Below are positions 4,981-48,888 of a stretch of 64,000 nucleotides of DNA, piece by piece. Origin of the DNA: Trifolium pratense. Its lineage: Eukaryota > Streptophyta > Magnoliopsida > Fabales > Fabaceae. The stretch covers positions 43,918,856 through 43,982,855 of the forward strand of contig NC_060063.1 of the NCBI RefSeq assembly GCF_020283565.1, read 5' to 3'. The translations under genes were made by a program, and so were the position numbers. The notes under the pieces were generated by a model. The model saw only the letters and a list, made by a program, of their open reading frames with translations, did not search any database and was not told the DNA's origin. Position 1 is the first letter of the stretch. Each line of letters opens with the position of its first letter.

Positions 4981-4989
4981 TTAATATAA
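4981..4989. repeat. left 9-bp target site duplication (TTAATATAA)
   Basis: The nine bases immediately before the terminal GGCGCC are TTAATATAA. The same nine bases follow the terminal GGCGCC at the other end, at 48880-48888. Nine-base duplications are characteristic of Mutator-superfamily insertion. Confidence 0.9.
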
Positions 4990-5070
4990 GGCGCCGTCTA
5001 CGGTGCGCACCCTTGATAGGCCGCGCACGGTGCGCATGCAAAAAAAACCGGATATTTCGGGAATATTCCA
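4990..5070 (+). repeat. left terminal inverted repeat of the giant MULE
   Basis: Begins GGCGCCGTCTACGGTGCGCA, contains a second GCGCACGGTGCGCATG block, then an A-run, CCGGAT and a GAATATTCC box. It aligns with the reverse complement of 48799-48879 with few mismatches. It is strongly GC-rich in an AT-rich setting, and weaker similarity continues inward to about 5130. The transposase start codon is about 250 bp from the end, so this TIR probably contains or borders its promoter. Confidence 0.9.
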
Positions 5071-5238
5071 TCACCGCATGTTTTTGTAAATTTAATAATA
5101 GTTACACTATTACAGGGTTAATGTCGGTATTTGACATCAATCTCAACTTTACCTTTCCAAAAATAACATGAAAAATTAGCAACAATTCTCACTGAAACTT
5201 GCAATTGCAATCGTTCGTTGAAGATCGACCGCAGAACA

Positions 5239-8073
5239 ATGAATAACCAAGTTCGTGGTGAGGTCGTTGGTGACGCTGATGGTGCTGTTAGTGGCGAAGT
5301 TCGTGGTGAAGTCGTTGGTCACGCTGATGGTGCTGTTAGTGGCGAAGTTCGTGGTGAAGTCGTTGGTGACGCTGATGGTGCTGTTAGTGGCGAAGTTCGT
5401 GGTGCCGTCGACGGTGGTGTTGCTGGTGTCAGTTCAGCGCGCGATGAAGTAATGGATGCTTACTTTGTAAGTGCTAGTATGTATTTGTGCTTTTAACCGA
5501 TAGTATATATTTGTTGTATTTTATATTGATGTAGTCATTTATTTATTTTTTAGCAAACATTGAACGAGTTAACACAAGAGAATCCTTCTTATAGAGAACA
5601 TTGTAGAGGTGATGAGGATAATATTGGAGACAATGACATTGGGTTTGATGCAGAAGATGACAATGTTGGTCACTCTGCAGATCATGATTATAATGATTAT
5701 GAGGAAGATGATGAAAGCTTGGGGGGTGAACTTGACGGTGATGAAAGTTATTCTGATACTGACAATGAGTGGGAACATTTGGATGAAAGTGGGAACACGG
5801 TTGCCAACGATTTGGATGAAAATTCAGATACCGACAATGAGTGGACACATTTGGATGAAAATGCAGAGCAATTAGTCATAATTGATGGTGAGGAGGATGT
5901 TGTAAAGATTGATATGTTTAACTTGCACAATGAAGACGTTTCTAAGTTGCGATTTGGTAATTTGGAAGTTGCATACAAATTTTACTGTTGGTTTGCAAAG
6001 ATGAACGGTTTTGCTGTTCGCAAAGGGCAAGATGTTAGAAATAAAGATGGAGTTCTTGTTCAAAAAACATTCGTTTGTAACCTAGAAGGCTACAGGAAAG
6101 ACCGTCGCGATTTAACTGAAGTGACGCGCAAGCGTGGTCCGAAACACGAAACCAGGTGTGGTTGCAGTGCAAGACTTCGAGTGCATATTGATATAATTTC
6201 GGGTCTCTGGTACATTACTATTTTCAGTTTTGAGCACAATCATTATATGTTGACGGAGAAGCACTGTGGGCTATTGGCAGCACATAGGAAACTTACAAAA
6301 TCAGATCAGATTCAAATTAAGAACTATGGTCAAGCTGGGATAAAGGTTGCTCAAATGATCGGTGCGTTTGCCAATGCTGCGGGAGGGTATGATAAGGTAG
6401 GGTTTTTGAAGAAGGATTTGCACAATCAAATTCAAAGACAAAGAAAAGAAACGTCTTCTGATGCTAAAGGTGCTGTTAAGTACCTTCTAGGTCTTAGGAC
6501 TAAAGATCCATTGATGTTCGTTGCACACACGGTCGATGCTTGTGGTAGGTTGCAAAGCTTATTTTGGTGTGATGGAGAAAGCCAAAAGAATTATGAGGTT
6601 TTTGGTGATGTGTTGGCATTCGATGCTACATATAACAAAAATAAATACAGGTGCCCGTTTGTTGTATTTTCCGGTGTCAACCACCATAATCAGACAATTA
6701 TCTTTGCCACTGCTGTAGTTTCTAATGAGGTTGAAGGCACATATGTGTGGTTGTTGGAGCAATTTTTGCTTGCGATGAAAGGCAAGGCCCCTGTTTCTGT
6801 AATAACAGACGGTGATGTAGCTATGAGGAATGCAATAAGGAGAGTATGTCCTAATAGTTATCATAGGTTATGTGCTTGGCATCTTCTTCGAAATGCCATG
6901 TCTAACATTGGTAACCTAGAGTTCATTCCATACTTGAAAAAATGCATGCTTGGCGATAACGATGTTTGGAAATTTGAGAAACTGTGGAATGAAATGATAG
7001 ATAAGTTTGGGCTTCAAGACAACAGTTGGATCAAAGAATTGTACCAGAAAAAGAAGATGTGGTCAACAGCCCATATTAGGGGGCATTTTTTTGCAGGAAT
7101 ACGAACGACGTCGCGGTGTGAAGCATTTCACAGTCACATGGGTCAGTTTGTCCACTCAAAGATGAATATGACTGATTTTGTGAAGCAGTTTAATAGATGT
7201 GTATGTTATTTTCGCTTCAGGGAGGTGGAGGCGGATTTTCATTCACAATATGGAAATGCTGTCTTGCAGACCCCTCTAAGGTCACTCGAGAGGTCTGCAT
7301 CAAAACAATTCACACATGAGATTTTCTGCTTGGTACGTTCTGTACTAAAAAAGGTTTCCCTGATATCATTATGTGACACTCAAGAGATGGCATCCTTTTC
7401 AATTTATTCTGTGACGAAGTATCAAGACGAAGGACATGTTTGCCGTGTATCTCACAGTCCATCAAACAATGAATTTAAATGTTCTTGTCTTAGAATGGAA
7501 TCAATTGGAATTCCTTGTGAACACATCGTGGCAATTATGGTATATCTTGATACTGTTGAATTCCCGACTAATCTTGTGTTGAATCGATGGTCTAAATTTG
7601 CAAAGGACTCAATTCGTGGTAATGTTAACGATGGTTCACATTACTGGGATTCACATTTGGTTGCGAGACATGCCAATTTGGTGCATCTTAGCAAGGAAGT
7701 TTCCGATTTGGCTTACAAGGATGTTGATGATTATAAAAACTATTTGGATTATCTAACCAATGAAATCACGAGGCTTAAATCAAAGTACGTTGGTGATAAC
7801 GGTCCTGTGAATTTAAATGGTCCGGTCGAAGTTGATAACATATTGAACCCTTCCTGTGCAAGAAGCAAAGGCGGTGGACCCAGTTCCAACAACACTACAG
7901 CTGGGAGAAGCAGGCGTCCAGGAACATGTGGCGGATGCTCCCAAGTTGGACACAACATAAGATCTTGTCCTAACCTGGCTGAAGATGGAGAATTTCCTGC
8001 AGCCAGTTCTGTTCAATCAATGTCTGTACGGTTAAGCGGTAACAATTACGAAGGCTACGTCAACACCAGATAG
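5239..8073 (+). CDS. FAR1-type MULE transposase
   Basis: Two exons, 5239-5466 and 5554-8073, joined in frame (GTAAGT donor, TTTTTTAG acceptor), encode 915 aa. The frame opens earlier at a TTG, but the first ATG is at 5239. Exon 1 encodes three copies of a Gly/Val/Asp-rich 16-residue unit (GEVVGDADGAVSGEVR). An acidic region follows to about residue 190. Next are a FAR1-type DNA-binding domain (about 213-308, with CGCSARL and EHNH), a MULE transposase core with FDATY (Asp433), ITDGD (Asp495), CAWH (516-519) and RCEAFH (Glu599), a SWIM zinc finger (Cys719, Cys721, Cys731, His733) and a CCHC knuckle (868-881). All catalytic residues are present, so it may be active. It should cut and insert DNA at the TIRs in the nucleus; domesticated relatives are FAR1/FHY3. 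It sits just inside the left TIR, pointing inward. Confidence 0.93.
5270..5410 (+). repeat. 48-bp tandem repeat x3 inside transposase exon 1
   Basis: Three nearly identical 48-bp units starting GTTCGTGGTGA preserve the reading frame and encode a 16-residue unit. They form the N-terminus of the FAR1-type transposase. Confidence 0.9.
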
Positions 8074-8716: not shown

Positions 8717-9238
8717 TCAAACAAAACCACGTCTACGATATTGACCGCAATCATGCGAATCTGCCAAATCCATCTCAACAACCTTAATATCAAAGACAAT
8801 CTTAAATTCCTTTCCTCCAGATCGCTGTCCGATTCTAACGCAATTTTCAAAAATATACGGTGAAACATAATTAGCTAAATCATTACTTATGGGTAAATTT
8901 GCCAACCTTTGAAACAAACCGACAGAAAATAATTGCACATTTTTAGTGACAACGGAAAGAGGAAGGCCGAACTTGTATTTATATATTGGGGATACAATAA
9001 AATCACTTTCAGTTGGTATAGGTTGGAGTCCAGACAGAGGTTGAACATAAAGTTTATAGAACCCTTGAACATGAAGCTCTATTGTTACTAATTTTTCATG
9101 AAAACATTTGTCTGATACTGGTATAGTGGTTTGTGCCATCATTGTGTGGGTATAGGTTTTGCTAGGGATTTTAAGCTTCGATAGATCTAAACGATGAAGT
9201 GGATTTGGGTTTGGGGAGTTATTTGAGCTAGATGCCAT
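8717..9238 (-). CDS. hypothetical protein, 173 aa
   Basis: A single-exon minus-strand frame from ATG at 9238 to a stop at 8717. I do not recognise the family. The N-terminus (about 35 residues) is Ser/Pro/Asn-rich. The rest alternates hydrophobic and charged residues, with a globular stretch from about residue 40 to 165 (blocks GLQPIPTESDF, KYKFGLPLSVV and FKIVFDIKVVEMDL). There is no signal peptide, membrane segment or zinc motif. It lies inside the giant MULE between the transposase and the Ulp1-like gene. It could be a small accessory protein of the element, comparable in position to the second gene of MuDR, but no similarity to mudrB is visible. The uninterrupted length in AT-rich DNA and an ordinary start support it as a gene. 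It may be an exon of something longer. Confidence 0.55.
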   Translation of the reverse strand: MASSSNNSPNPNPLHRLDLSKLKIPSKTYTHTMMAQTTIPVSDKCFHEKLVTIELHVQGFYKLYVQPLSGLQPIPTESDFIVSPIYKYKFGLPLSVVTKNVQLFSVGLFQRLANLPISNDLANYVSPYIFENCVRIGQRSGGKEFKIVFDIKVVEMDLADSHDCGQYRRRGFV

Positions 9239-10610
9239 TGATTGAAACTGAAAATGATAATAAAACCAACCTGGCTATTTTTCACAAGTTTGTTTCTTGC
9301 GTATCATCTCAAGTGTGGATAGGAAGCCATTTTATAGGTAATATAAACCAATATTTACTGTTGTTACATCCTGTAGCTGTACAGTTAAAATATGTGTTGG
9401 AAATATGTAGTATACTTATTACTTTCTCGAAAAGGAACTAAATCAGGAGACAGGGAATCTTACTATTAGCCATATGTAGTATACAAAAACCTCATAAAAT
9501 GTGACAATTCATTTCCTGACAAGATTCCCGTCAATACCCTTTTAGTTGTATTAGATTTAATGAATGTAATATATTCTGGCTATGCATCAATATGGAAAGG
9601 AAATTTTAAATTGTTTATATATTAGCTCACACAAAATAATGGGCCTATAAAAGTGTTAGTGGCCCATCCAAAAACTCACCCATACCAGGTCTACATCCAC
9701 ACCCAAAATAATGGGTCTCAAAAATTAATGCTAGTACCATTAAACATGAAGTGCCCATCATACTATATATATAGTGCACACAAAATAATGGACCTATAAA
9801 AGTCTTAGTGGCCCATCCAAAAACTCACCCATACCAGGTCTACATCCACATCCAAACTAATGGGTCTCAAAAATTAATGCTAGTACCATACATGAAGTGC
9901 CCATCATACTATATATATAGTGCACACAAAATAATGGGCCTATAAAAGTCTTAGTGGCCCGTCCAAAATAATGCTAGTACCATTAAACATGAAGTGCCCT
10001 TCAAAATACCATACATAATTACTTTTGCTTCCCACATACCCCTCGTCCTCGTCACTGATCATCTTCTGCAGTTACTTGATGCCAATACATCCTCGCCCGT
10101 TGTATCAAACTGTTGCTAACCTCATTGTGGTTGCCAAGCAAGACTCTCATTGTCACAATCATTCTGGTCACATTCTCATCCAGCTAGCATAACACGTTAT
10201 TTGGTTAGTAATTAAATAACAAGTTCAGGAACAAGTATTTGACAACGCACATTTATTTTAATTCATTATCAGTTTGAATGTGTTTGTTTGTGGAACCAAA
10301 TAAGAACATTCAGATAGGAACCACATAGCTGTGTTTGACTGTGTTTGCTTGACCTTACTATAATTTTGAGTTTAAGTTTATGGGCGGCATGAAAAACAAA
10401 TTATATCAAACGCAAATGTGTACTTATTAAAACTGATAACTGACTTTAATTCGTGTGTTGTAAATGCAGCATGGTATACAGGTAGTTAACGTGTGTTAAT
10501 CCATGGCACCATGTTGTTGCAAAGCGTATCTTACAGAGGAATTGGATTGTACTACTTGTTCATACTCAAAGGCATATCATGGTAAACCATAATGATATCA
10601 AATGCATATG
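9239..10610. other. gap between two minus-strand cargo genes
   Basis: Contains the ~146-bp tandem repeat at 9628-10010 and then the 3' flank of the Ulp1-like gene. No further coding exon was recognised; frames here are short. Confidence 0.4.
9628..10010 (+). repeat. tandem repeat, unit ~146-149 bp, about 2.6 copies
   Basis: The phrase CACACAAAATAATGG begins at 9628, 9777 and 9923. The intervening sequence (GGCCCATCCAAAAACTC, ATTAATGCTAGTACCAT and ACTATATATATAGTGC) repeats with few changes. The third copy has an internal deletion. The period is 149 then 146 bp. Confidence 0.9.
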
Positions 10611-13600
10611 TTATTCCACGTTCTGAATTAAAGTTTGGTTTTTCAAAACATAACAACTTTACAAGAGAAAGATAATTTACCAATCCAATTGCGTTGCTCG
10701 TAAAACTGTTTTGCATATTGAGCCACTCCACAACCCATAGTCCAGAAGCATCACTACATTTTGAACATATAACATTAACACCATAATTATACCAATTTCA
10801 TTATAATTTTGTACATTTACTGACTAAATACCTGTTCCCAAGGTTAGGCACACCTCTAGCCTCCACGATGTCCCACCTCCCAAAATCTGCCAGTCCACAG
10901 AAGGTATAGTAATCGGGATATACTTTGTCAATCAGTTTGGAAAGTGCCTTGCTCTAAACAAAGAAAATATGATGGTTACACATGTATCTTACATAATCCA
11001 TATAAAATTTCTGTTAGGTGTTGTGACTATTATACGAATACATACGATGGTTCTTATGGTTCTCTGTCTCTCGTCAATGACATCGTCTCTAAGGTGTGTG
11101 TCAAAGTGAAAGATCTTTCCATGTTCGATAGATACCACCATAAGATAAAAATGACCGCGCGCATCTTCAATGGGCACGTAGATCTACACCAATTGTAAAC
11201 AAATATGTTATATTTGGATACTATTAGTAGTGTTACTTGATTAGGGTGTATTGCAGGGACAGTTCAATATGTATTCATACCAGATTCAGGCGATCAAACT
11301 TAGGCAACCAATCTTTTCCGTAATAGCCGTGCAACTTGTCAATTGTGTGATCCTCAACAACATCCTCCTGTAATCAATTTGGAGTTTATTATGACATCAG
11401 CTATGTATTTATGTAATTCCTTTATAACATGGCCTTGGATAAAATATGAAATATATTTGATATACCGCAAATGAAGGTGGGAGACACCACAGTGTCTTAC
11501 AAAATGTGTTCTGCTGCGTCCATGTAACCCTCAACGCCATCATGAGGATTATCTAGTAATGTTGACACAAACAGATATATGTCAATGGATGGAGTTCTAA
11601 ATAAACCCCCAAGCAACACAGACACATATATGAATAAGGCATGTGCCAATCACGAAACTAAACAAGTATTTAAATGCATTTCAGCCCAAATCGATAAAAA
11701 CAATTGCTAAACACACACCCTGCATAGCTCAAACACAGTGTTTTGGCAAATACCATACAAAAAAAAGGCTAAAGTTGTATAACAAACACATAGCACAACA
11801 CAATTAATGCCTTAAGCGTCAAACATTACAATAATACACATAATCATTTAATACACTGTTTACGTTGACGCTCTTTTCATCAATATTACCTCCCTTGACA
11901 CCAACATTCCGGGAAGCATACACTCGAACTCACATCTTGCAAATTCTGTTTTGCCCTTCCTGAATACAACATCCCTGCACACAGACCACCAATGTTATGT
12001 TACATTACAGCAACAAAACATATATCGATATTTATTCAAAAATTTACAAGTTATATCAATTACATCACTCACTTGACATCAAAGTCATTCTGGAATACAT
12101 AGGCACATATCCTGACTTCCACATTGTCCAATTTCATGTCCACGGTTGTCTTAAATGGACACTTGAAAATCTGTTAAATATCAGTAACATATATAGTGTC
12201 ATTGCATTGAAAAAATTTGTAAACTGGATGATCAAGACATAATTCATATATGATAACCTTTGGAATAATCAGTCCAACGCCATTTCTGAAAGCTTGTGTT
12301 TTTCCGACAGCTACAACACCCTTAGCTCTCCCAACAGGGGAACGACGTTTGACGCCGTTTGCCCCAGCAGTTGCGGCTTGCTTGCCCCGTCCATTGCCAG
12401 GCAAAGGTGGTGCTGAGCATTCACCAGGTGTGAAACTCAGTTTTCTAGGCATCGCCGTTGTACTCCTCAGTGTTGTGCCCTTCATCAATAATGATGCAAA
12501 TTACTATCTACATGCTTATTTACATTCATTACTTAATCATGCAAGTGTTTTCATGCAAATGTTTTTTACCTTGTCGTTGACACGTCTCCGATAATCACTG
12601 TTGAATGCTTCGTAAGTTTGATGATCATCGACAGCTTTTGCGATAGCATCCTCTTCCACTGCATTTGAAAAATACCCCACGCGTTTTTTCGCCCTCTTGG
12701 GTTGTGTCTCGGCGCGAACAAAAGTTTCTCTACTAATTGTTCTTTTCTTTGCTTTGACTGTTGCATCAGCTATTTCCTCAGACAAGGAGATTGTACCAAA
12801 GTTTTTTAGTCTCGCCATCTCCTTGTCGATTTCAACCTCGTTATCGACACCGGTTCTTTGTAAAACAGATGTTTTCTTCAGCTTTTTCCCGTTATCCCCC
12901 AGCTCAGGAGAGTAATCAGAGCTGCTGTGGACGTCACCATCGTCCCTCCCCTTAGCCGGCGATCTCACAACGGGTTTTGAAAGTTCTTTCACATAGCGCT
13001 TTATCATGTCGGTGTTACACAGATCCATGCTATCTAAACGGATGTTGAGGTTCTAAAATAATGAAATGATTTTCTTAGTTCTTTTTCGATGCAACATATT
13101 TACTTATAAAGACATAAAAATGGATTGAACGAAAACACACAAAAATGATTTACTTTGTTCTTTTTGGATGCTACGTATTTACTTATAAAACACACATAAA
13201 TGGATTCAACGAAAACAACTTTTGATAAACATATTTGTACCTCAATGGCGTCCATTATGTCCCTCAGAGTGACTTCCGTTGAAGATCCAGCATGTCCAGC
13301 ATCTTGAATGACATGAGCCCCACGCTCATGAACCACCTGTAACAAAAGTTTATTAAAATTATTTTTACTTGTGATATTTCAGTAAACACGACCTTGATTA
13401 ATCACTAGAACCCTTGATTCAATCACTAGAACTTTTGATTTAATTACTAGAACTTATTATACAGCCATTACATTGTCATCCATGGGTCCAGTTGAGGAGA
13501 TATGCATGATCGAGACATTACCATCGTTTTGAGGGTGGATGCTACACAAACACATTTTTCTTCATTAATAACATGGAATATAGATAAAGTTATCAACTTT

Positions 13601-13696
13601 AAATCGTGTAAATGAAAGTTAAAGTTGGTTATGAATTTACGAATTGCTTCCTCTTGCAGGGCTGGAGACCAGAATGTGATTGTTGTTGAGTTCCAT
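10611..13696 (-). CDS. Ulp1/C48 protease-like protein, catalytic Cys replaced
   Basis: Thirteen minus-strand exons splice in frame to 542 aa: 13641-13696, 13472-13541, 13241-13336, 12570-13052, 12258-12479, 12073-12170, 11890-11974, 11466-11552, 11281-11367, 11046-11183, 10832-10953, 10681-10753 and 10611-10622, with GT-AG borders throughout. The N-terminal half is charged with basic clusters (KKLKK, PKRAKKR), suggesting a nuclear protein. The C-terminal part follows the C48/Ulp1 fold: VPIEDARGHFYLM with His439, FHFDTH with Asp456, then GNSDASGLWVVEWL, where active family members have D-C-G. Here Ser518 stands at the Cys position and Ala517 precedes it, so peptidase activity is doubtful. Ulp1 enzymes process SUMO, and Ulp1-like genes are known cargo of some plant MULEs. 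The last exon (stop at 10611) is the weakest part of the model. Confidence 0.85.
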
Positions 13697-21358: not shown

Positions 21359-22346
21359 TTACTCCTCCTTTCTCACCCACATCATATGGTCATCGTAGAT
21401 GTTGAAGCAGTTGAACAGTATAGTATCTCCAACTTTGAAATCATTGATGCCAACAACCTCCGGCCAGCCACTTGAAATCTTCACCTCAAACGGATACTGC
21501 TTAAACTCCAACGAGCACCAGTGCTTTTCACCATTGTTACCAACTAGCCTGACCCGGCCAAGCATTGTGTTCCACAGATAATCTCCCAGATCGTATGGTA
21601 ATGTCTGAAACGAACGAAACAAACCATTAAAACAAATTTAACAACTATATCTGTTTAATTCATTAAACGTTCTTAGCAAAAATTGAACAATATAACACAA
21701 AACTCAGAAACTTACCAAAATCGGATTAACTTCAGGATCCTCTGTGATAGTAACTTTAAATGTGACAGCCTTTCGAAGCGCTCGACTTTTCGAATGCCAC
21801 GTTGGGAACTGTGCAGGAGTAATCTTTTCGGGTGAAACAAAGATCTGAAAGGAACTTGAACCTATGTATTTGAATAATACCGAATGATGACCTTGTAAAC
21901 CATACATTTCCCTAAGCTCCGTCCACCCTTTTGTAAGCCTGGGAACTTCATCATCATCGTTGAACTCAACGACTTTTTGAACCCCACTTCCGGTTGAATC
22001 TAACAGACGCCATTCTTTCCCTAACTCTTGTTTGTATTCTCTGTAAAAATCCGGTTCAACTTCGCCCTTGACCTAACGTTACAACATAAATGGAAACAAA
22101 TTTAAAATAAAACTTAAATTTAAGTTATTATATCTGGAAAAAAAAAAAAAGACACAACAATGTTAACACATCATCGTTGTGGTTTGTTTTTTAATCGAAG
22201 GATTTTGTATTTTTATTACTCCATAATGGTTTTTCTCTTTTAAAACGCATATTAAACATCAGGGTACTTACCTCTCCTTCGACATGCACTGTACTGAAAA
22301 AACTTATGGCTGGACGAACAGAAGATTCGGCACGGTGTTCCGCCAT
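21359..22346 (-). CDS. tandem B3-domain protein (B3 gene 2 of 6)
   Basis: Minus-strand exons 22272-22346, 21716-22072 and 21359-21604, all phase 0, give 225 aa with start ATG at 22346 and stop TAA at 21359. Exon 1 ends FFSTVHVEGE, the first B3 strand. Exon 2 completes B3 domain 1 (EWRLLDSTG, LTKGWTELREMYGL and SVLFKYIGSSSFQIFV, about residues 12-115) and a linker. Exon 3 is B3 domain 2 (LGRVRLVGNNG, SSGWPEVVGIND and FKVGDTILFNCF, about residues 145-220). Exon 1 is 75 nt, the same length as in B3 gene 5. It is probably a nuclear DNA-binding protein; the lack of any activation or repression motif (such as EAR) is noted. It is transcribed toward the hAT element at 19686-20468. Confidence 0.87.
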
Positions 22347-23046: not shown

Positions 23047-23048
<2 letters not shown>

Positions 23049-23093: not shown

Positions 23094-24365
23094 GGGCCGG
23101 TTCCGATTTTTTGGAGGCCCGAACAAATAATCAAAATGGACCCATAATAATAAATAAAAAAAAAACATTATTTATTTAAAAATTGCAACTTAATTTTATA
23201 AATGAATTCGTTTTTTACAAATAAATAATAAAATGTAGTTTTATTTAAAAAAGAAAAATAAAATAAGGTAGTTAAGTTATATATAAATTATGGTAGATTC
23301 TAAGGTGAGGTTTAAACAGAGCAGTTAAGGCTCTTTGACTGTTCATCACGTGTCTTTGTCCGTTATTTTGTTTTCATTTTTATTATTAATTATACTATAT
23401 ATGGAGTAGATAGTAGTAAGTATCACCATATTGTTTTTCCAACACCGTTTTCTTTGATCCAAAACCAACAACTTGATCAACCTCTGATTCTTCATCTTCA
23501 TAAGTTCATATACCTTTTAAAACATAAACTTCAATTCAACTAGTACAAATTTGGTACCCAGCCTCTAACCCCACAACTTGATCGTAAAACCTCAACCTAA
23601 GAGTCTTCATTACCTCCAGTCTTTCTTCTTAGTTGTTCCTACTACCACGCTACCATATATGTTGCCAGAGATGTTGTCGCTGGAGTTTAACCTACTGCTT
23701 TACGAGTCAATCGCTTCTTTTTGTGTTTATCATCGACTGTAATTTCTTTGATTAATGAGGTAACAAACTTCTATCTTAAAATTTCATTATTTGTTAATGT
23801 AATATATGTTTCTTATCAAGCAATTGTTTTCAAATAATTTAATATTTATTTTTAAAAATTTAAATATTGAAGTGATTTACATTTTAAAAATTTACATTAA
23901 GACTCTGATGTTGGAGTTTTATAGACAAGTTTTGGGGTTAGAGTATTTATTTACATAGTTGTTAATTTAATTTCTTATGAAGACATGCTTACTTTGGGAT
24001 TTAATGCTCATCAGCAATCTACTGATTAATTTTTGTCTTTTTACACGTTTTTAACATGTGCTATCGATTATATTGAGTATTAATTATTAGCGGCTAGGGC
24101 TAGCCGCCAGTAGAGCTTGGTATGCGATCGTAGATATATTTTTAAAAACAATAAATATCTTGATAATCTTAAAAAACAATAAATATCTTTTTTTAAAAAT
24201 AGTATTTTTAAAAACGATCATTACAATCAAAATTAGATTTTCATATATTTGTTCTTTTATTTTCATAAAAAAAAGGTCATTATGCAAAAACTAATCTAAC
24301 GGTTAATATATTTGTTCTTAATCGTCATCTCTCTCCTTTAGACATTTGTTTTCTGGCTCTGTCTC

Positions 24366-24436
24366 TGGTGCGCATGACATATGAGCCTCACACCGTACGC
24401 ATACAATAAAAACCGGATATTAATGGTATATTCTCG
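24366..24436 (+). repeat. second internal relative of the MULE terminal repeat
   Basis: GGTGCGCATGACATATGAGC, CTCACACCGTACGCATAC, then AAAAACCGGATATTAATGG and TATTC follow the block order of the left TIR, and the orientation is that of the left end. It interrupts a repeat shared between 24247-24353 / 25045-25095 and 36474-36583 / 37035-37090, which suggests an insertion of about 0.7 kb. No opposite-strand partner was found. Confidence 0.65.
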
Positions 24437-30440: not shown

Positions 30441-31257
30441 ATGGGAAGAAGAAAGAGGTATGCAGCATCCTTCTATGTATATTCCGCGTTTGTTCAAATG
30501 ATCATCTGTTTGTTGTGATACTTTTAAGTTTAAGTAATCATATCGTTCAACTTATTAGCAAGGTTAAAGAAAAATGTCATTAGATTATTGTTTAATTGAA
30601 TCTATTATGATGAAGCTAAATGTGTTTATCGTCACTGAAGGTTGAATGTTTAAGAGTTTTTCATAAGCTTTATGTACCAACTAGAATTAAGATGCAGCTG
30701 TTATGATAAGCAATTTATATTGTAGGACTCCTATGGTGAGCTATACCGAAAGTCAAGAATATACGAATGATAGTCACTGCTATTGTGCTCACTGTTCTTC
30801 TGGAGGGACCGACGATGTTGATATCAATTTTCACGAAGTTTACACTTGGGATATGGAGGTCACTAATGCACTTGCTTCCAGGAAAAAGATGCAAGTCATG
30901 GTAGGTTTTATATGGTCCTAAATTTATAAGCTGTTTTTTTATTCAAAATTTGCTCGCTTTCGACTAAACAATACATTTGATTAACATGTCTTTCAGCATT
31001 TCCCCCGTAATGTATCGAAGTTTGCATTCTCTTCAAATCAGACACGAATCGTTCTTGAACCAGAAGACAGTTGGGAGGAATACGCATGCACAATTGCTAC
31101 TTCAAATCGATGCCCCTACGAGAAGTACTTGACTCGTGGTTGGTATGAATACAAGAAGGATATGAAGATTAGAGCTGGCGATGTTCTTAAGTTTTCAATG
31201 CCAAAGTATCCGGGTTTTATCATCGTTGATCTTATTCGTCGCCGTGATCGTGTTTGA
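30441..31257 (+). CDS. single-B3 protein, first B3 domain lost (B3 gene 4 of 6)
   Basis: Exons 30441-30457, 30726-30900 and 30997-31257 join in frame to 150 aa. The short first exon (MGRRKR) resembles the tiny first exons of B3 genes 3 and 6. Exon 2 carries only a linker with a Cys/His cluster (HCYCAHC) and the end of the usual linker (VYTWDMEVTNA). The B3 domain 1 that genes 3 and 6 encode upstream of this linker is absent. Exon 3 is a complete C-terminal B3 unit: HFPRNVSKFAF, RIVLEPEDSW, TRGWYEYKKDMKIRAGD and LKFSM. The junction just before it (MQVM then HFP) is the conserved intron position of the family. It could be a natural single-domain derivative or a gene broken by deletion; the frame is open throughout. 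Confidence 0.78.
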
Positions 31258-33871: not shown

Positions 33872-34734
33872 TTAGATTTTAAAAACGCGCACAACATTAT
33901 TACCAGAGTTAACAAGTGAAAAATTAAAGCATAATCCATCACCAGCACGAAACCCATTTTTGCGACAAAAACCAAACCAACCAGGTCCTAAGGCAGTCAC
34001 CGGGAAAGGATTGTCGTGAATTGCAATTTGAAGATCAGTCTTTGTTCCATTGTCACAGCAAGCAGTTATCACATTCACATTACAATTTCGCACAAAAATT
34101 GCAAACAAATCCCATATGCTCTGTTTTGCAAATTAAAAAATCCTCAATATATATCTTCAATAACTGTCAAAATAAACATATTTAGAAAACATAAACATTA
34201 AATAAATTATAAAACTTACCAAATATGGATTCCTGATGTTCTCACGCGTGAGTTCCACTTGAAATCTAGCACAATTACCACGAGTATATCGGCTATGATA
34301 GTTTGGGATTTGTTCTTCACATTCAAATCTTCTTGAAGCAGTGATACCAAACAGACCTTCACCATGATAGGCAAAATGGATTTCTTCATTCTTATGAAGA
34401 TCGAACTCCTCTCTCATCTCTTCCCATCCATCTGTGAGAAGAGGATGGATTTCATCTTTGTTGTATGTAACAACATGATGCTCAAATCGATAATCCATTA
34501 TCCTCCATTGTCCAGGAAGTTCATGTCCAAAATCACGAATGAACTTTGGATCCACCTCTCCAAATTTCTAATTCAATTATCAACAATCAAATAATTACTT
34601 AATTTCAACATCTATGAAACATAAAACATTGCAAGATAATAACATAGGTTTCGTTTTACCTGATTTGAGAAAAGCATGGTTACAAAGTTCCCAAGAGGTG
34701 TAACATCGATAAGATCACAATAGTAGGTCTCCAT
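33872..34734 (-). CDS. tandem B3-domain protein (B3 gene 5 of 6)
   Basis: Minus-strand exons 34660-34734, 34220-34567 and 33872-34120, all phase 0, give 223 aa from ATG at 34734 to TAA at 33872. Exon 1 (75 nt, as in B3 gene 2) ends GNFVTMLFSNQ, the first B3 strand. Exon 2 has the remainder of B3 domain 1 (VDPKFIRDFGHELPGQW, LTDGWEEMREEFDLHKNEE) and a linker. Exon 3 is B3 domain 2, somewhat diverged: SIWDLFAIFVRNC, ALGPGWFGFCRKN and FRAGDGLCFNF. A Cys pair (ACCD) in this domain is unusual. It most resembles B3 gene 2 in layout, so the two probably arose by duplication. Function: presumed DNA binding in the nucleus; target unknown. Confidence 0.84.
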
Positions 34735-37717: not shown

Positions 37718-39399
37718 TTCGCAAAAATAAAGATCTCGTTTTTTTTAAAAAAAAGAAGTATAAAATAAAAATTGCAATAGAAAAATATACAATAATGATG
37801 AACTTAATACTATTGGAAAAATACATCATTTGATTAATTTGTTGATAGATTCATCAAGTAAATACATCATTGATATTCCAACTTGTATCCAAGACATCAT
37901 TGATATTGATAAAGTGCTATAAGCAAGATTTTCTAAAAAAACAAAACTACAGTTGTTAAAACAGACTCCGAGTTCTCAATTCAATCCATTTTGTGAGAAT
38001 GTGATGCATTTCGTCTTGCCTCTCAATTATTTCCCTGTCACGAAAAATAAATAGGATTAATAAATAAAAAGATGACCAAAAGAAAATAATCTAAAAGGTA
38101 AAACAAACAATATATTAAAAATATAAGAAATATCCAACAAAGAAGAAAAAATAAAGAAATTTAAAAAGGTGGCGATATACAGAAAAAATAGTGATTATCG
38201 AGAGAGATGAATATGAGATAATGAAGATTGAAAAATTGTGAGTTTTAGAGTTCAGACAAATGTTATATATATAGTAAAAAAAAAGGACAAATGAGTAATT
38301 TTGTCTTTAATATGAAATTAAATTCATTAAAAGTCAAATATATTGATTCCATTTTTAATTTTAAAAATATATTAGTAAATTAGTAATTAGTAAATTAGTA
38401 AATAAGACATATTCCATTATATTATAAATAAATTAAATAAATTAATGCACATGAATATAACACACATATTCCAATTTTTTTAAATAATAATAAAATATTA
38501 ATTATATTATGTGACTCTATATAATTATAAAATTATGAAAATATATAATAAATTTTGTTTTTACCGTAATACAATATATATGTGTGTGTGTGACTTTAGT
38601 ATTTTTATACACGACCATTTAGAAAAAAAATTGTGAGAGAATAATTTGGAGACCATAAAGATTTAATATTTTTTTAATTGAATTTGAAGACCATAAAAAT
38701 TATTATATCCAGCTGACAATTATACCTAATTATTATATGCAGTTGGCAATCTTCCTTTCATAAAAAAAAAATTTAAAAACAATTGCTTTGGTACAAAAAT
38801 AATTTTTTTTTTGACAAAATTGGTACAAAAATAGTCAATTATTTCCTTTTAAAATTATTTTTAATAGGTGCATTAAATTCGATTTATAAACAATAATTGA
38901 AAAATGATTGAATTTCCAAATTAGCCAAAGATTCTAAGTAAAATGATATCATCATGTATTAGAGAAATTGCAAAGGCCTTCATAGTTAGCCACATAGGAA
39001 TTGGAGAAATATTAGAATGCCACGTAAGACATGGATCAAGGAAATGGTGCCACATAGGAATAAGACCATGAAAGAGAAACTCCTAAATATATAAATAATA
39101 GATGAGGAGTACAATTTGATACTGTAGTTAAAAAATGTAAGACACATGATATGAATTAATGGTTTACATATTTTGTGATGTGTAGTTTTAGAATACTCGT
39201 ATAAACAAGTCGGTAAAGCTTGTGCAGTACACTTATTACAAACAACAAGTAATAACCTAAACCAACCACCAACAGTAATAGGATTCCATGAACCCTTAAA
39301 GATCGAATTGCTACAGTACAGTCACAGTCGAAATTGATGCCCTGTTTATGAGGTTGTAACCTATTAAATCTGAAATAAGTTTTATTAATCGTATTCATC

Positions 39400-39887
39400 A
39401 TGTCAACAAATTCATCAACCTCGACTGCAACTGGTCGATCTGGCTCGCAATCCCGTCGAACTGAATGCTTCTGTGGTCTGCCTTCACCTATGATGACAGC
39501 TTGGACGGAAGCAAATCCTGGCCGCCGCTTTAATGGGTGCGGCATGTATAAGGTATTATTTCGTAAATTTAGTTTAAATATTATAGTTCTTTTTGAACAA
39601 AACGATATGGTATTTTAATTAATTTTATTAAATTTTAGCTGCGTGGAAGAAAAGAGTGCAGTTATTTTGTTTGGTTTGATGAAGAAATGAACCCAAGGGC
39701 CAAAGAGGTCATATTATCCTTGCTGGAGAAAATTAGAGATGAAAAGAAAAAGGTTACTGAATCACAGAAAAGCGCAGATCAGCTGAAAATGAAGATGAAA
39801 TCGATGAAGGGAATGTGTATTGTTCCTGTGTGTGTGATGTGCATTGCGTTGTTTGTGTTAATTGAATGTTTTGTTATTTGTAAGTAA
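39400..39887 (+). CDS. small GRF-type zinc-finger protein with C-terminal membrane segment
   Basis: Exons 39400-39552 and 39639-39887 join in phase 0 to 133 aa. The N-terminus is Ser/Thr-rich (about 20 residues). A GRF zinc finger follows: CFCGLPSPMM, then NPGRRFNGCGMYK across the intron to RKECSYFVWFDEE (about residues 22-70; ligands Cys-x-Cys, Cys, Cys, with the name-giving G-R-x-F). Next is a charged coiled-coil stretch (VILSLLEKIRDEKKKVTES) and a hydrophobic tail of about 20 residues (VPVCVMCIALFVLIECFVI) that looks like a membrane anchor. GRF fingers bind single-stranded DNA or RNA in larger repair enzymes. Small plant proteins of this design are common and often lie near transposons; their role is unknown to me. 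Confidence 0.82.
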
Positions 39888-40768: not shown

Positions 40769-42470
40769 ATGGATTCAAGGTCGAAGTTGTAAGTTCATTA
40801 TATAGTAGCGCCAAATTTAGTAGTGTCAGCGTCTTTTTATACTATATTATTCCATGACTATTTGAAGTTTAATATGTTTCAAAAGGGTTTCAAAAGGGTA
40901 TGCTTGTTTGTTTCACCAACCCAGAGAATAAACTATGTTTCTGTTTTATTCTTAACATAGCTATTTGGGACCACAAAGTGCGATAATTTCATGTTTTTTC
41001 GTGTCGTGTCGGCCATGTTGAGCAAGTGCAATGTAATAAGTGATTGTGTACTGTGTTGTTTAAGTTATGGTACACAGTACACACAACGATAACCATTAAA
41101 AAGACCAGGTCACAATATAGGCGCCCACAATATATAATTAGTTTATCTATTATAAATTATTTTATACTACATCTACATGTTAATATATCTTTATAAAACT
41201 TCATAGAAATTGTAGAAAAAATTGTTAATGTGCATTTTACAAATATTTTCCAAAATAATATTGTTAATGTATAAAGTAGCAGAGCCTTTTAGAATTATAA
41301 ACTACTCATAACTAACCGACTAGAGAATGTAATTTATAGACGATTAATTGGGTTTAGTAAAGACATACACTTCTAATGAATATAAAGATACATAACATTA
41401 TTTATATGGAATGTGTAGGGAAGCTTCTCGGTTGTTTACGACAACAATTCACCCGGACAAGGTATGTTCCATATAGCTAACATCTCAGATCTTACTTTGA
41501 ATATAATGCAATGATTATATAAGCTGTATCTTGTAATGTTTACTTTCATTGGTATAGTGCATTTGTTACATGTCGGGTTAATGTGTTCCAATCAATTTAT
41601 TTGAATTTTATATCTCATTATGTTTGTAGGAAAGGATAAGGATATGTCCATACTTTTTAGCGCATTGGTCAAGTGCCATCAATTTCAACAGACATGGCTT
41701 CATAACAAACGAAAAGCAATTGAAGACATTGATTCAATTTAAAAAACGTAACGGGAAAGGTAATTATTATATGACTTGTGGAAAAACGTTGGCAGTGATG
41801 AATGGTTATAAGGAACCAATTCAGGTCAACATGTATTATACAGGTGAAAAGAATGACTTTTTAATGTATGAACTTAAGTATTGCAACCAACCTGATCCTA
41901 CCCCAGTTATCATTTTATCTGATGAGGAAGAGGAAGACAGTGACTCGACCAGTGACTCGACCAAAGAGGCAGATGCAAAATTGCAAGAATTCATTAATTT
42001 TTATGGAGCCCAGTCCACGAGTACAACTGTCTCGAACCCTACTGAACAACACCACCACCAGGAATATCAGTATGAATGGACAAAAATTGTGTCGGAGTCT
42101 TTTGTTGCATGCACGACTGTGCTGGTAAGTCAATAATAATATGCATAAGCTGCATTTAGTATCACCGCATCAGTAGTTTGTCAATCCATTGCGTTAATGT
42201 CAAGTGTTATGTCTATTTTTGTAGCACTTTCCAACCTCTGTGGCGATAACAGCACCATTTATTGATGGTCAGAAGATAGATGTTATTGATGAACATACCA
42301 AGAGTAGAGCAACTTGCTTTGTGAAAAAGGCTGTCTCTCCCATTCCAAAATACCATGTCATTGGGACACAGTGGTATGCATTCCTGAGAAGATTGGGAAT
42401 TCAAAAGGGGGACAAGCTAAAAATGCGAATGGACAATCCCCCGACTGTACTTAATATTACCAAGCATTGA
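40769..42470 (+). CDS. tandem B3-domain protein with SIM-like linker (B3 gene 6 of 6)
   Basis: Four exons, 40769-40788, 41419-41461, 41630-42124 and 42225-42470, join in frame to 267 aa. As in B3 gene 3, exon 1 is 20 nt (MDSRSK). Exon 2 ends with the first B3 strand (RLFTTTIHPDK). Exon 3 completes B3 domain 1 (ICPYFLAHW, GNYYMTCGKTLAVMNGY) and a long acidic linker beginning PVIILSDEEEEDSDS; VIILSD is at residues 114-119, the same position as VIDLTSD in gene 3, and fits a SUMO-interaction motif with a phospho/acidic tail. A His/Gln-rich patch follows. Exon 4 is B3 domain 2 (HFPTSVAITAPF, IGTQWYAFLRRLGIQKGDKL). Intron 1 is 630 bp. Probably a nuclear DNA-binding protein. Confidence 0.85.
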
Positions 42471-44084: not shown

Positions 44085-47000
44085 ATGACTTTTACTGTTG
44101 TTTTAAACCACGGGGGATTGTTTGTTAGAGAGTGGGATATACTGTACAAGGATGGGAAAACAAAGGAGGTACAAATAACTGATACACATAAATGGAGTTA
44201 CTTGGACGCTGTCAGCCATGTGGAAGATATTATTAAAAAAGAGGCATACATTGGAAGGTATAGGTTGTGGTGGAAGCGCGGAGAAAAAGGTAGTTATAAA
44301 ATGTTAAGGGTCGACAAGGATGCCAATGAGGTTCGCAATTATGCTATCAAGAACCAAGGTATAGTTAATATGTATGTTGAGCATGGTGTGGAACTAGATG
44401 ATCTTAGTAGCTTTGTTACTATACCGAAATATGTAAATGCTGAGGAATTGGATGCTTCTGATGATGGTGTAGATGTTGATGTGGTGGCTAACAATCAAAA
44501 TGATAAGGGGAAGGGTGTGATGGTGGAATCTGAGGATTATAGTAGTGTTGATGACTATAACAGCGAACATGAGGACAAAGGTATACCATTTGATGACAGT
44601 GAAGATGAGAGAACACTGGGTGGTTTTGGAGAGTTTAGTTTACCGTCTGATGCAACTATTAATGGGTCAAACAGAGCTGATATCGAGGGAAAGTCATATA
44701 CGGATAATATGGAAGCAGCGAAAAAGACAAAAAAAGATTACTCGAGACCCACTTTTGATTGTGGATATGTCAGTGATGAATTAAATAGCAGTGACCCAGA
44801 GGAATGTGGTAAGGAAAAAGGTAACAGCAATCCAAAGTTTAGGAAGGAGGAGCTGAACAAGGATTTTCAGTTCAAGCGTGGAATGGAGTTTAACTCGCTT
44901 GCTGAGTTCAGGGAAGCAGTAAGAGATTGGTCAATATATAATAAGCGGGAAATTTTCGTTGCAAAATCCGATAGTACAAGAAGTAGGATTGTATGTAGAG
45001 AACGGTGTGGGTTCACAGCAATGTGCAGTAGAGTAGACGACAAACACACTTACGTTATTAAGACTTGGAAAGGAGAGCACACATGTAAAGAGGTAATAAA
45101 CAATAGATCAGCATACTCTGGGTGGGTAGCTAAAAAGGTGGCGGATAAATTAATGTCTAATGAAATTGTTGAAGTTTCAGACATAATGAGTGACATGTGG
45201 AGGAACCTAGATGTTGGAGTATCATATAAAAGGGCATTGAGAGCAAAAGCAAGAGCAAGTGAGATTGTTGAAGAAAATGGTGCAAAACAGTACACACTGT
45301 TATGGAGGTATGCAGCTGAACTTAAGAAGCATTCTAAAGGTAACACAGCAGAAATAAGTGTTCAGAGGATAGCCCCTACCATCAAACCTAGATTTGGAAG
45401 CTTTTATTTTAGCTTTGACGGATGCAAGAAAGGGTTTATGGCTAGCTGCAGACCTTTTATTGGTCTGGAAGGATGTAATTTGAAAACAAAGTTTGGCGGA
45501 CACCTTCTGATTGCAGCTGGAAGAGATGCTAATGATCAATATTATCCATTAGCATTTGCGGTTGTTGAAAATGAAACACAAGAATCCTGGAGATGGTTTG
45601 TAACCTTACTACTAGAAGATATTGGAGCTGACAGGAGATTGGTATTTATTTCTGATCAACAGCAAGTAAGATTAGATGTGGGTTGTCTATTATTGGATAT
45701 GATTTTTGTTATGCATCTCATTTATTATGTTTGTTTATCATTGCAGGGTTTAATACCTGCTTTTGAAGACATGTCCGACAGAGTGGAGCATAGGCTGTGT
45801 TTGAGGTCCTTGTACGATAATTTCAAAAAGAGGTTTAAAGGAGGTGAAGTAATCAGGGATTTGATAATGGGAGCAGCCAAGGCAACCTACCAACAAGAAT
45901 GGGAGAAGAAAATGAATGAACTCAAGTCTTTGGACAAAAAAGCATGGGAGTGGCTAAGTGCACATGATCCAAAATTATGGTGTAAGCATGCTTTCAGTTT
46001 CTATGCTAAATGTGATGTTGTTATGAATAGAATATGTGAAGCTTTTGATGCAACAATGTTGGTAGCTACGGACAAACCAATAGTAACAATGTGTGAATGG
46101 ATAAGAAAATACATCATGAATAGGATTGCAAGCATTAAATATGAACTCCGGCTTGGTAGTTGGAACAATAGGATCATGCCAATGCCAATGAAGAGGCTGA
46201 ACAGAGAAATCGCATTAAGTGCGGGATGGTTGCCAATATGGTCTGATGATGATAAATGTGAGGTTGAAAAAATTGGGGGAGGTAATTCATTTGTTGTGGA
46301 CCTTGCCAACAGGACCTGTTCCTGCAATTTTTGGGAGCTGGTTGGAATTCCATGCAGACATGTTGTGGCTGCAATGACGAGAAGATCGCAGACACCTCAA
46401 GATTATGTAGATTATTATTATTCCAGAGATGCTTATGAGAAATGCTATAGTTTTAGTGTGACTCCAATCAATGGTGAAGAAATGTGGCCACGTGTAAAAC
46501 ATGAGGAAATGTTACCACCAAGTTGCAACATAGGTCCAGAGAGACCAAAGAAGCGAAAAAAGGTTAGCCGAAGAGTGCCCGACGAAGTCAGAGTCTATGT
46601 TGATAGGCCTTCAACATATAAATGCAAAGCTTGTGGAATACGAGGTCACAATGCCAAAGGTTGCAGAAATACTACAAAAGACCCGCTAGCTCCACCAGGG
46701 AAGGTAATAAAAATGTTTGTGTTGTTATTGTTTTTAAACTTTTTTTTTTTGTTAACTTAAACCTTTTTTATTATAGAGGAAAGCATCTGAAGAGGGAGGT
46801 GCACATGCTTCATTACAAAACACTTCTACTGCAGCAGATCAAAGCACTTCATCTGCACAAGTTGAAACAACTGCAGCTGCACCAATCCAAACCACTACCT
46901 CTACACCAGTGAATGTCGGAGTACATCGTGTGAACAAAAAAGCAAGGATTACACAACCAATAACAATCCCACATTCTGCTACATCAGAATCTACTCAAAA

Positions 47001-47847
47001 TCACAATCCGACAACCGCTTCTGCAACGGCTTCAAAATCTCGCAGAAAACAGATAAATATTGATTGCAGGCAGCTGAGGAGGAGCGGCAGGATTTGCCGA
47101 GGCAATCCAGTTCAAGTTGATCGGGTTGAACCGGAACCAGATGTTGAAATTCAACAAGTAAATGCCGACACGTCGAATTTGAAAGGTCCTTCTGCAACGG
47201 CTTCGAAATGTCGCATAAAACAGAAAAATGTTGATTGCAGCCAGCTGAGGAGGAGCGAAAGGCTTTGCCGAGACAATCCGTTTCCGGTGGATCGGCTTGA
47301 ACCCGAACCACATGTTGAGATTCAAATTGATCACGCTGACACGTCGAATTTGAAAGGTCCTTCTGCAACGGCTTCGAAATGTCGCATAAAAAAGAAAAAT
47401 GTTGATTGCAGCCAACTGAGGAGGAGCGGCAGGCTTTGCCGAGACAATCCAGTTGCGGTGGATCATGTTGAACCTCAACCACATGTTGAAATTCAGATTG
47501 ATGACGTCGAAACATCAAACTTGAAATCTCCATCTAAGGTAAAAGCCACGGCATCTTCAAAAGGTTCGAAATCTAAAAAACCGGTCAAAAAACTTGATTT
47601 CACAAAGCTGAGAAGGAGCGGCAGGACATTCTATTCCGGTCCGAAGCTAAAACTTGGTGCACCGGGAACATTGAAAGACAATCCAATTACCATCGATGAC
47701 ATTGAAGAAGGAGATGGTGAAATTAATACGGATGATGTCGACGAACGAGGTGCCGATTTAACTCGAGAGATTCATGATTCGACTCAACAACAGTTTTATG
47801 ATCCAAGAGTTGGAATATGTTTAGCAGCAATGAGAAAATGGCCATGA
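44085..47847 (+). CDS. MuDR-type MULE transposase-like protein with C-terminal repeats
   Basis: Exons 44085-45665, 45747-46703 and 46777-47847 give 1202 aa. The 81-nt first intron has no stop and would be read through if unspliced. Domains: an N-terminal MuDR module (1-105, TVVLNHGGLFV), an acidic region, a MuDR DNA-binding domain (about 260-335, CRERCGFTAMC), and a MULE core with FISDQQQGL (Asp524) and ICEAF (Glu625). A SWIM finger (Cys718, Cys720, Cys730, His732) and a CCHC knuckle (820-833) follow. Where the family has G-x-D-G-C it has LEGCNLK, Glu462 replacing the first catalytic Asp. The usual C-x-R-H is CLRS. Activity is therefore uncertain. Exon 3 adds three to four 57-residue repeats (QLRRSGRLCRDNP) not typical of the family. 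It points toward the right TIR, about 1 kb away. Confidence 0.9.
47021..47640 (+). repeat. 171-bp tandem repeat coding the C-terminus of the MuDR-type protein
   Basis: CTGCAACGGCTTC starts at 47021, 47192 and 47363, exactly 171 bp apart; a more diverged fourth unit starts near 47545. The frame is kept (57 codons), so each unit repeats QLRRSGR and an acidic tail. Confidence 0.92.
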
Positions 47848-48798
47848 GAAAGTTACCCTGATAATGTAATATTGATGTTTTAGTTAATATTGATGTTTTA
47901 GTTGAGTAGTTGTACCATTGTTGCGTTATTTTGATTGTATTGAACTAGTTAGTGCATCTGTTGGTTAAACAATTTATCATTTGGATGCTTACCACTGATA
48001 TGTTTGTTTTGAATGCTACATTTGTAGTACTTTCGTGTCCTTATTTTGTCAAATACTATGATCAAGTGTTATGTCAATTTGTCCAACTTTTATGTCAACA
48101 ATCTGTGAAGGTGATGCTTAATGTATGGATCAAAGCTTGTGTTTATAAGACAACCATAGCAGAGCAGCTTCTAAAAATATTGTAACACCATTGTATTCTG
48201 TGTTTATCAAAAATCCATCTAATTTATTAAAAGATTCTAAACAATTGGTGTATTCATGCTGCACTTGGCTAAGCTATCAAGTAACCTGAGAGGAAAATGA
48301 GACAATTTTGCAGAAAATCTCAAAAAATTACCTGCATATTCGCTTTTTTCTTAAAAAATTGTGTTTCAATCGTCTCAAAAAAACCATTTCTATTTCATAT
48401 TCAAATTCAATTGATACATTGAACTTGATACATTGAATAACTCCAACTCAAAAATAACATCATTGTCACTACTATCACTTTGTTCTTGTCGTTAACAAGA
48501 TCTGCAACATTCTTGCAGTTCCCAAATCCAATCACATCAACATTCTTGCAGTTCCCAAATGCAATCTCAGCAACATTCTTGCAGCCAATTTCTGCAACTT
48601 TCAACCAAGCCATGGGTGGATGAAAACACAAACAGAAATTATGTCAATTTTATTCCTTCAATGATTCTTCGATTTGATCATGGCCATGGGTGGATGAAAA
48701 CACAAACAGAAAAACGATGAAGAAGACGACCCATGTGAAATACCAACATTCTCCCTCGTGTAAATGAATTACGAAAATTATTATTTAATATGTGTCAC
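47848..48798. other. right subterminal region of the giant MULE
   Basis: Non-coding 3' flank of the MuDR-type gene, then a 33-bp repeat (about 48500-48600, unit beginning AACATTCTTGCAGTTCCCAA, two full copies and one partial) and a duplicated CCATGGGTGGATGAAAACAC (48611-48630 and 48684-48703). A minus-strand frame starting at the ATG at 48613 encodes a repeat GFGNCKNV, but it is only about 68 codons long and I do not call it a gene. Confidence 0.5.
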
Positions 48799-48879
48799 GG
48801 GAATATTCGCCCAAGATCCGGTTTTTTTGTCATGCGCACCGTGCGCAGCTGATGATGCATGCGCACCGTAGACGGCGCC
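48799..48879 (-). repeat. right terminal inverted repeat of the giant MULE
   Basis: The reverse complement begins GGCGCCGTCTACGGTGCGCA, followed by TGCATCATCAGC, TGCGCACGGTGCGCATG, an A-run, CCGGATCTTGG and GAATATTCCC, matching the left TIR block by block. The similarity fades inward around 48740. Confidence 0.9.
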
Positions 48880-48888
48880 TTAATATAA
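48880..48888. repeat. right 9-bp target site duplication (TTAATATAA)
   Basis: Identical to 4981-4989 and directly adjacent to the terminal GGCGCC. Confidence 0.9.

Follow-up and report, generated by a model that had tools for sequence, protein, structure and literature searches.

A Giant Mutator-Like Element of Red Clover with Two Transposases and Accessory Genes, Likely Mobile as a Single Unit

Introduction

How much DNA, and how many genes, can a plant Mutator-like element (MULE) carry as one unit? The question is raised by a 64,000-nucleotide stretch of the red clover (Trifolium pratense) genome, here called the window (C5:43918856-43982855, in an assembly of 413.6 Mb and 90 contigs). The interval at positions 4990-48879 of the window, 43,890 bp long, is very probably a giant Mutator-like transposon, one of six large copies in this genome, which likely moves as a single unit by cut-and-paste through its own FAR1-type transposase, here called transposase A. 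Below we set out the ends of the element, its copies, its genes and its relatives, and weigh the other explanations where the evidence on each is given.

Ends and Extent of the Element

Both ends were placed by direct reading. GGCGCCGTCTACGGTGCGCA starts the element at 4990 and the same sequence, inverted, ends it at 48879. The inverted arms (4987-5069 and 48800-48882) span 83 nt and are 84% complementary, and TTAATATAA abuts the element on either side as a perfect 9-bp duplication. The ends are composed of the following features, in window coordinates:

4981..4989, no strand: left 9-bp target-site duplication, TTAATATAA (read directly, compared across copies)
4990..5069, plus strand: left terminal inverted repeat (arm comparison, family ends)
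48800..48879, minus strand: right terminal inverted repeat (arm comparison, family ends)
48880..48888, no strand: right 9-bp target-site duplication, TTAATATAA (read directly, compared across copies)

The inverted-repeat ends and the perfect duplication claimed in the original prediction are thus confirmed. The Mutator superfamily has target duplications of 8-11 bp (PMC6446971), and the clover elements fall within this range, with 9/9 matches in four of the six large copies, 9 and 9 bp in a related family M and 9 and 10 bp in a related family N. Terminal inverted repeats are likewise present, with related ends in all six large copies.

Copies in the Red Clover Genome

The 20-mer end was searched across all 413.6 Mb with up to three mismatches, and the reversed pattern served as control. 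It was found at 16 sites exactly and at 40 sites with up to three mismatches, compared with none for the control. The 22 sites with up to two mismatches were inspected and the 18 with three left out. They comprise six large inverted pairs (E1-E6, the window copy being E1), two small pairs on C4 and six single ends. The six large two-ended copies (36-73 kb) are spread over four large contigs:

E1, window 4990-48879 on C5: 43,890 bp, duplication 9/9
E2, C2:45510808-45583993: 73,186 bp, 500 N in the fetched stretch, duplication 9/9
E3, C5:18785929-18828900: 42,972 bp, TTTATGC only, displaced
E4, C6:6418326-6470420: 52,095 bp, duplication 9/9
E5, C7:13681839-13717956: 36.1 kb, duplication 9/9
E6, C7:25996471-26052509: 56.0 kb, TAATAGTAG on both sides, one base displaced

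The expectation that other loci would carry these ends 20-80 kb apart, inverted and with 9-bp duplications, was borne out by five more large pairs, three with perfect duplications, one displaced by one base and one ambiguous. The perfect 9-mers of E1, E2, E4 and E5 are distinct in each copy (TTAATATAA, TATTTAAAC, TAGTAAGTA and ATAGTAGTT), and mismatched left/right pairings, used as control, agree at no more than 7/9 positions. Searching the genome with the inner segment of the right end, at no more than three mismatches, gave seven sites, namely E1-E6 and an unpaired end, S1.

Two side observations concern individual ends. The E4 end at C6:6418326 is a hybrid, left-type in its first ~50 bp and right-type in the remainder, a pattern expected of conversion or of gap repair between ends. 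S1 (C1:11994573-11999473) is an unpaired right part of the family, and the T. pratense gene model LOC123884755 isoform X2 (P0002) fuses a host HCNGP-like gene to exons of the second transposase of the family, transposase B. P0002 is possibly a chimeric gene, and may lie at S1.

Identity of the Copies and Movement as One Unit

The four copies E1-E4, each read from end to end, are colinear and 99.5-99.9% identical across 39-41 kb, and their homology stops at the inverted repeats, within 4 bases. Relative to E1, and counting aligned bases only, single-nucleotide polymorphisms (SNPs) number 192 in 39,097 (E2), 108 in 40,385 (E3) and 31 in 40,664 (E4). The four copies have 253 variable sites, 201 of them private (128 to E2, 43 to E3, 17 to E4 and 13 to E1). 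Among the 52 informative sites, 51 join E2 with E3, and one joins E3 with E4. Sites grouping E2 and E3 are present in each 4-kb bin of the element, and the E4-only sites are confined to its right half. Differences in copy size reflect nested long terminal repeat (LTR) retrotransposons (E2 has three and E4 one, identified by their paired repeats, which are 99.7-100% identical), other insertions and some deletions. At a substitution rate of 7e-9 per site per year, E1 and E4 would have split very roughly 50,000 years ago, and E1 and E2 roughly 350,000 years ago. Movement must be recent, since the copies are so similar.

Segmental duplication, or unrelated MULE ends spaced by chance on either side of host DNA, has next to no probability as the source of these loci. 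The 2-kb flanks of E1-E4 are unrelated, save for one 33-bp match and for a dispersed repeat that occurs both left of E1 and right of E3, and the target duplications differ from copy to copy; for E1, E2, E4 and E5, the distinct perfect duplications refute this explanation. Duplication of surrounding DNA has nonetheless occurred once in the family. The two small elements on C4, E7 and E8 (5.1 and 5.4 kb), have ends related to the family ends, and they look like one insertion duplicated together with its surroundings, since their duplications are reverse complements of one another and their near flanks similar.

Matched ends, copy-specific duplications, colinear bodies and a single tree together indicate that the window interval moved as a unit. 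This had been proposed originally, and is supported by the five further large pairs and by the near-identity of E1-E4; copies with only part of the interior, the outcome that would have spoken against it, were looked for in the three other fully read copies and none was seen.

Two Transposases at Opposite Ends

The element encodes two different types of MULE transposase, one toward each end:

5554..8073, plus strand: transposase A, FAR1-type MULE transposase (FAR1, MULE and SWIM domains), 839-aa open frame (Pfam, genome search)
44085..47847, plus strand: transposase B, MuDR-type MULE transposase (DBD_Tnp_Mut, MULE and SWIM domains), spliced (Pfam, copy comparison)

The MULE domain (PF10551) of either protein passes the curated cut-off (A, E=8.5e-28; B, E=1.4e-8), as expected of the Mutator superfamily; a zinc knuckle in transposase B matches below cut-off. 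Among named MULEs, Jittery is FAR1-like. The frame of transposase A is open in E1-E5, with a candidate upstream exon possible. E1 and E4 have an intact transposase B and E5 an open main frame for it; the best match of this protein outside T. pratense is 55%. As a separate observation, three tandem 171-bp units at window 47018-47530, in the C-terminal exon of transposase B, encode 57-aa protein repeats.

Could the giant be a non-autonomous passenger, moved in trans by the transposase of smaller elements with similar ends, its own genes being incidental? We consider this improbable. Smaller elements with related ends do exist (the 5.1- and 5.4-kb pairs on C4), and transposase B is broken in three of the six copies. 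However, transposase A lacks a stop in 8 of its 9 full-length genome matches at 99-100% (54 of 659 candidates scored), variation in exons is about half that in non-coding DNA, and the types of accessory gene recur in a second family, M.

Accessory Genes

Gene models within the element bear out the claim of two transposase-type genes plus at least eight further genes. Five of the accessory genes are of the B3 type, one of them recognised solely through similarity; a sixth encodes a GRF zinc finger, and the remaining two lack a known domain:

8717..9238, minus strand: G1, 173-aa open reading frame (ORF), 67% to T. pratense LOC123896630 in the C-terminal part of the latter; open in E1-E4
10555..13028, minus strand: G2, multi-exon gene for P0070, a predicted T. 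pratense protein of 424 aa lacking Pfam domains
21359..22072, minus strand: Y2, two B3 domains, two exons (Pfam, copy comparison)
28134..29154, plus strand: X1, B3 gene, equal to T. pratense LOC123904789 (P0068) from residue 7 (protein match, genome search)
30691..31257, plus strand: X2, B3 gene, tandem paralogue of X1 (Pfam, paralogue comparison)
33872..34567, minus strand: Y1, two B3 domains, two exons (Pfam; phase of second exon provisional)
39389..39887, plus strand: GRF zinc-finger gene, two exons, predicted (Pfam, copy comparison)
41630..42470, plus strand: X3, paralogue of X1 without a Pfam match of its own (similarity to X1)

The two X1 exons joined from the window are identical to the predicted protein LOC123904789; no exon was found for residues 1-6 of that protein. 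A database of 5.77 billion proteins, searched with limited sensitivity, gave two matches to X1, both from T. pratense. In the genome, the main X1 exons are found at 95-99% in E1-E6 only, and the next relatives are at 24-59% (150 of 310 candidates scored). G2 matches T. pratense only, and P0070 had no match below E=1 among PDB sequences. Its C-terminal GLWVVEWLNM is reminiscent of the Ulp1-type proteases of other MULEs, with no match in Pfam. Structure models of X1 (alignment A1, P0068 first) and P0070 were discarded at mean pLDDT 38 and 32.

Frames are open in E1-E4 for X1, X2, X3, Y2, GRF, G1 and the two G2 exons tested. Two stops before RRS in every copy of X1 stem from an exon bound set too early, and 9 apparent stops in every copy of Y1, E1 included, stem from the exon phase chosen. 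SNP density is lower in coding than in non-coding sequence for E2 (0.0030 vs 0.0056, Fisher p=6e-4) and E3 (0.0015 vs 0.0031, p=0.004); the E4 comparison gave p=0.23. Differences in the predicted exons are thus about half as frequent as elsewhere in the element, a pattern suggestive of selection acting on the genes.

These data bear on whether the element is a Pack-MULE, that is, an ordinary MULE with captured pieces of host genes, in which B3, GRF and the other genes would be fragments without a role. G1 fits such a picture in resembling part of another T. pratense gene, LOC123896630 (in which DUF223 lies just upstream of the G1-like part). We nevertheless regard it as highly unlikely. Pack-MULEs have no transposase of their own and carry host gene fragments, whereas this element encodes two transposases and most tested accessory frames are open in four copies. 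Moreover, scored X1 matches outside E1-E6 reach no more than 59%, and family M has the same gene types.

Related Families M and N

B3 genes accompany FAR1-type transposases elsewhere in the genome. Among 43 further FAR1-type transposases, 16 have a B3 relative no more than 20 kb away, in all 16 cases downstream and on the same strand, compared with a mean of 0.31 and a maximum of 3 in 2000 trials of random placement. The test used 43 of 54 transposase rows (11 E-family rows dropped) and 77 of 131 B3 rows (E1-E6 and second rows of listed loci removed by hand). The remaining 27 transposases, including the closer relatives of transposase A (45-58%), have no B3 relative in the rows used. The B3 genes, judged by this arrangement, are not random captures, because they repeatedly adjoin FAR1-type transposases.

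Family M was recognised from two of these 16 loci, chosen for equal transposase-B3 spacing, in the regions C6:32752501-32775500 and C5:44775701-44798700. Its two copies, one on C6 and one on C5, are 19,972 bp long and 100% identical over their full length, with ends GGAAAATTCTATGG.../GGGAGCTTCTATGG... and distinct 9-bp duplications (TTAGATTAT and CATAATAAA). The transposase of M is FAR1-type, at 35% to A. Alongside it are an exon of X-type B3 (31% across 85 residues), a double B3 of Y type (56% and 49%) and a match to GRF (42% across 33 residues, E=5e-4); no separate homologue of transposase B was found in M. Unless the identity reflects an assembly error, M would have been active very recently.

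At three loci, a relative of A and a relative of B lie 17.6-29 kb from each other, in the same order and on the same strand. By position, three pairs are no more than 50 kb apart, whereas random placement gave 0.39 on average and 4 at most in 5000 trials (43 FAR1-type rows as before and, for transposase B, 37 of 51 rows, with E-family rows and second rows of listed loci removed by hand). Both position tests assume that C3 is 55 Mb. Pairing by position is weak evidence, and it is the inverted repeats and duplications that carry the claim of a second two-transposase family, N. Inverted repeats GGCCAATTCTAGCATAGGAGACC... bracket both of the loci whose ends were fetched (the third pair is on C7):

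N1, C5:1390395-1425113: 34,719 bp, duplication TTAAAGAAA, 9/9
N2, C5:11981620-12004910: 23,291 bp, duplication ATATGCATTT, 10/10

The N transposases are 58% (A) and 43-52% (B) to those of E, and the two-transposase plan in A-then-B order recurs despite the different ends. A search around the 58% transposase relative gave no E-type end, which is explained by the separate ends of family N.

Family N also bears on the history of the element. The two distantly related transposases at opposite ends could mark a composite (a macrotransposon), in which a FAR1-type MULE and a MuDR-type MULE landed close together and the outer ends now move the block between them. Inside the element there is one relic of a family end, and further along a nested insertion:

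24355..24434, plus strand: internal relic of a family end, 57/80 to the left terminal inverted repeat
25892..27616, no strand: nested insertion of 1.7 kb with inverted-repeat arms of 220 bp (98%), which are found in E3 and E4 too

The relic is in left-end orientation, and three shuffles scored below 44/80. It is possibly the scar of an older element, and this single internal end hints that the two-transposase body arose through fusion of two elements. However, neither a partner nor an opposed inner end to the relic was found within the element, E1-E4 carry the same 39-41 kb body, so that a composite is unneeded as the current state, and family N keeps the A-then-B order inside its own, different inverted repeats. 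A fusion of two MULEs, if real, is old, since E1-E4 have a common body and N the same order. We therefore hold the composite to be doubtful, and retain the giant Mutator-like transposon moved by its own transposase as the better explanation.

A Proposed Mechanism and the Evidence Against It

Under this explanation, transposase A would bind the inverted repeats through its FAR1 domain and cut both ends. A staggered target cut of the MULE type would then give the 9-bp duplication, and repair of the donor gap from the sister chromatid would keep or raise copy number. Transposase A is taken as the mover because its type is common to E, N and M, because its frame is open in most E copies, and because M has duplications without a found B. 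Transposase B is a second, co-carried MULE transposase. Some large elements of this type can probably do without it, as copies of family M, with no separate B homologue found, have their own duplications. The B3 proteins (X1-X3, Y1, Y2) and the GRF protein may work for the cycle of the element itself. Their likeliest role would be that of DNA-binding regulators specific to the element, sustaining its expression against host silencing like VANC in VANDAL elements. The motif TGACTGCA, with 18 copies in the element and one in 20.1 kb of window flanks, could be a VANC-like target motif, a weak lead.

Several observations weigh against this account. Transposition is deduced from copies with differing duplications, and E5 and E6 were compared through their ends and protein matches only. 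The E6 duplication has TAATAGTAG at both sides with one extra base on the right, and that of E3 is ambiguous, TTTATGC alone being in common and displaced on both sides. Six family ends (S1-S6) have no partner, and three of them (S2-S4) each lie beside an intact transposase A. Transposase A is broken in E6, and transposase B in E2 (insertion), E3 (frameshift) and E6 (two pieces); these three copies may hence depend on outside help for movement. On these ends, transposase A is a candidate for the role of mover. That the B3 genes may counter silencing is an argument from analogy, and 11 of the 18 copies of TGACTGCA fall inside the nested insertion at 25892-27616, for which reason the motif is kept only as a lead. 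The slower change of exons may in part come from base composition, and the three comparisons share ancestry. In family N, the B-type frames have one or more stops in the matched stretches, so that the family may be old or these frames spliced. Additionally, X-type B3 genes are absent among the scored matches inside N (150 of 310 candidates), and the shared kit is therefore shown for E and M only.

Comparison with Known Elements

With the Mutator superfamily the clover element shares MULE transposase domains, inverted repeats and 9-bp target duplications; it differs in its ~40-kb common body, its two transposase types and its at least eight further genes. In grapevine, MULE families reach 17.7 kb (the MuDR-like Mutavine-1) and Jittery-like families 14.4 kb (Jitvine-2), with 9-nt duplications wherever these were found and ULP genes in some (PMC2528002). 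The element had been described beforehand as far beyond ordinary MULEs, which stands in that it is ~2.5-fold larger than the 17.7-kb grapevine maximum and needs tempering in that the excess is not tenfold, MULEs up to 17.7 kb being published (PMC2528002). Family M (20 kb) is near the published range, and E and N1 are beyond it. According to a 2019 review, the founding Pack-MULE study found none above 7 kb, and the efficacy of DNA transposition falls above ~6 kb of cargo (PMC6431247). No 40-kb MULE appeared in the titles and abstract beginnings on giant MULEs, accessory genes, cargo size and red clover among the matches listed (neither preprints nor the majority of subscription journals being covered), nor was a two-transposase 40-kb MULE found in the literature searched. 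The word "giant" has no occurrence in the available text of PMC6446971 and PMC13317346. A B3 gene has been reported to adjoin a MUSTANG gene, both being syntenic host genes (PMC3418495).

VANDAL elements such as Hiun are also MULEs with accessory genes, one of which encodes a sequence-specific DNA-binding protein (PMC5735166). VANDALs are non-TIR MULEs (without terminal inverted repeats) with the anti-silencing protein VANC, whereas the clover element has inverted repeats. Its candidate regulators are B3 proteins, and "B3 domain" occurs 0 times in the available text of the VANDAL paper (PMC5735166), so that the likeness in anti-silencing would be one of analogy. Fungal Starships, in the sources available, are likewise giant, gene-rich and mobile as a unit, and to this extent the originally drawn parallel with gene-rich giants of other kingdoms stands. 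The machinery points away from it, as Starships are classed by a tyrosine recombinase, in contrast to the MULE transposases, inverted repeats and 9-bp duplications found here. No tyrosine recombinase was found among the ORFs and proteins scanned against Pfam, a scan that covered part of the ORFs. Giant DNA transposons of a brown alga and of fish (Teratorn, 180 kb, piggyBac) show that superfamilies can grow giant, in other superfamilies and other organisms (PMC12477816, PMC5601938). Among plant DNA transposons, maize Helitrons with captured gene fragments attain a similar length, up to 39 kb (PMC6431247). Those are rolling-circle elements, whereas the clover element has inverted repeats, target duplications and MULE transposases.

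Implications

E, M and N look like a lineage of giant, gene-rich MULEs, in which units of 20 to more than 40 kb, bounded by MULE ends, contain many apparently intact genes. A broader proposal, which we put forward tentatively and at somewhat less than even probability, is that plants own a lineage of giant gene-carrying transposons, a counterpart of the fungal Starships. At least three red clover families (E, 36-73 kb; N, 23-35 kb; M, 20 kb) would be built on FAR1-type transposases, with a conserved kit (multiple B3 genes and GRF, and a second, MuDR-type transposase in E and N) that would give each element a DNA-binding system of anti-silencing and regulation and would let MULEs mobilise 20-40 kb as a unit.

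For annotation, the finding means that at least one gene of the element (X1) is listed publicly as an ordinary uncharacterized protein. For the biology of MULEs, the family is a tractable system for studying how a MULE transposase handles giant elements, and for asking whether B3 and GRF proteins act in anti-silencing, regulation or end recognition. The element also bears on whether plants have vehicles for whole gene sets.

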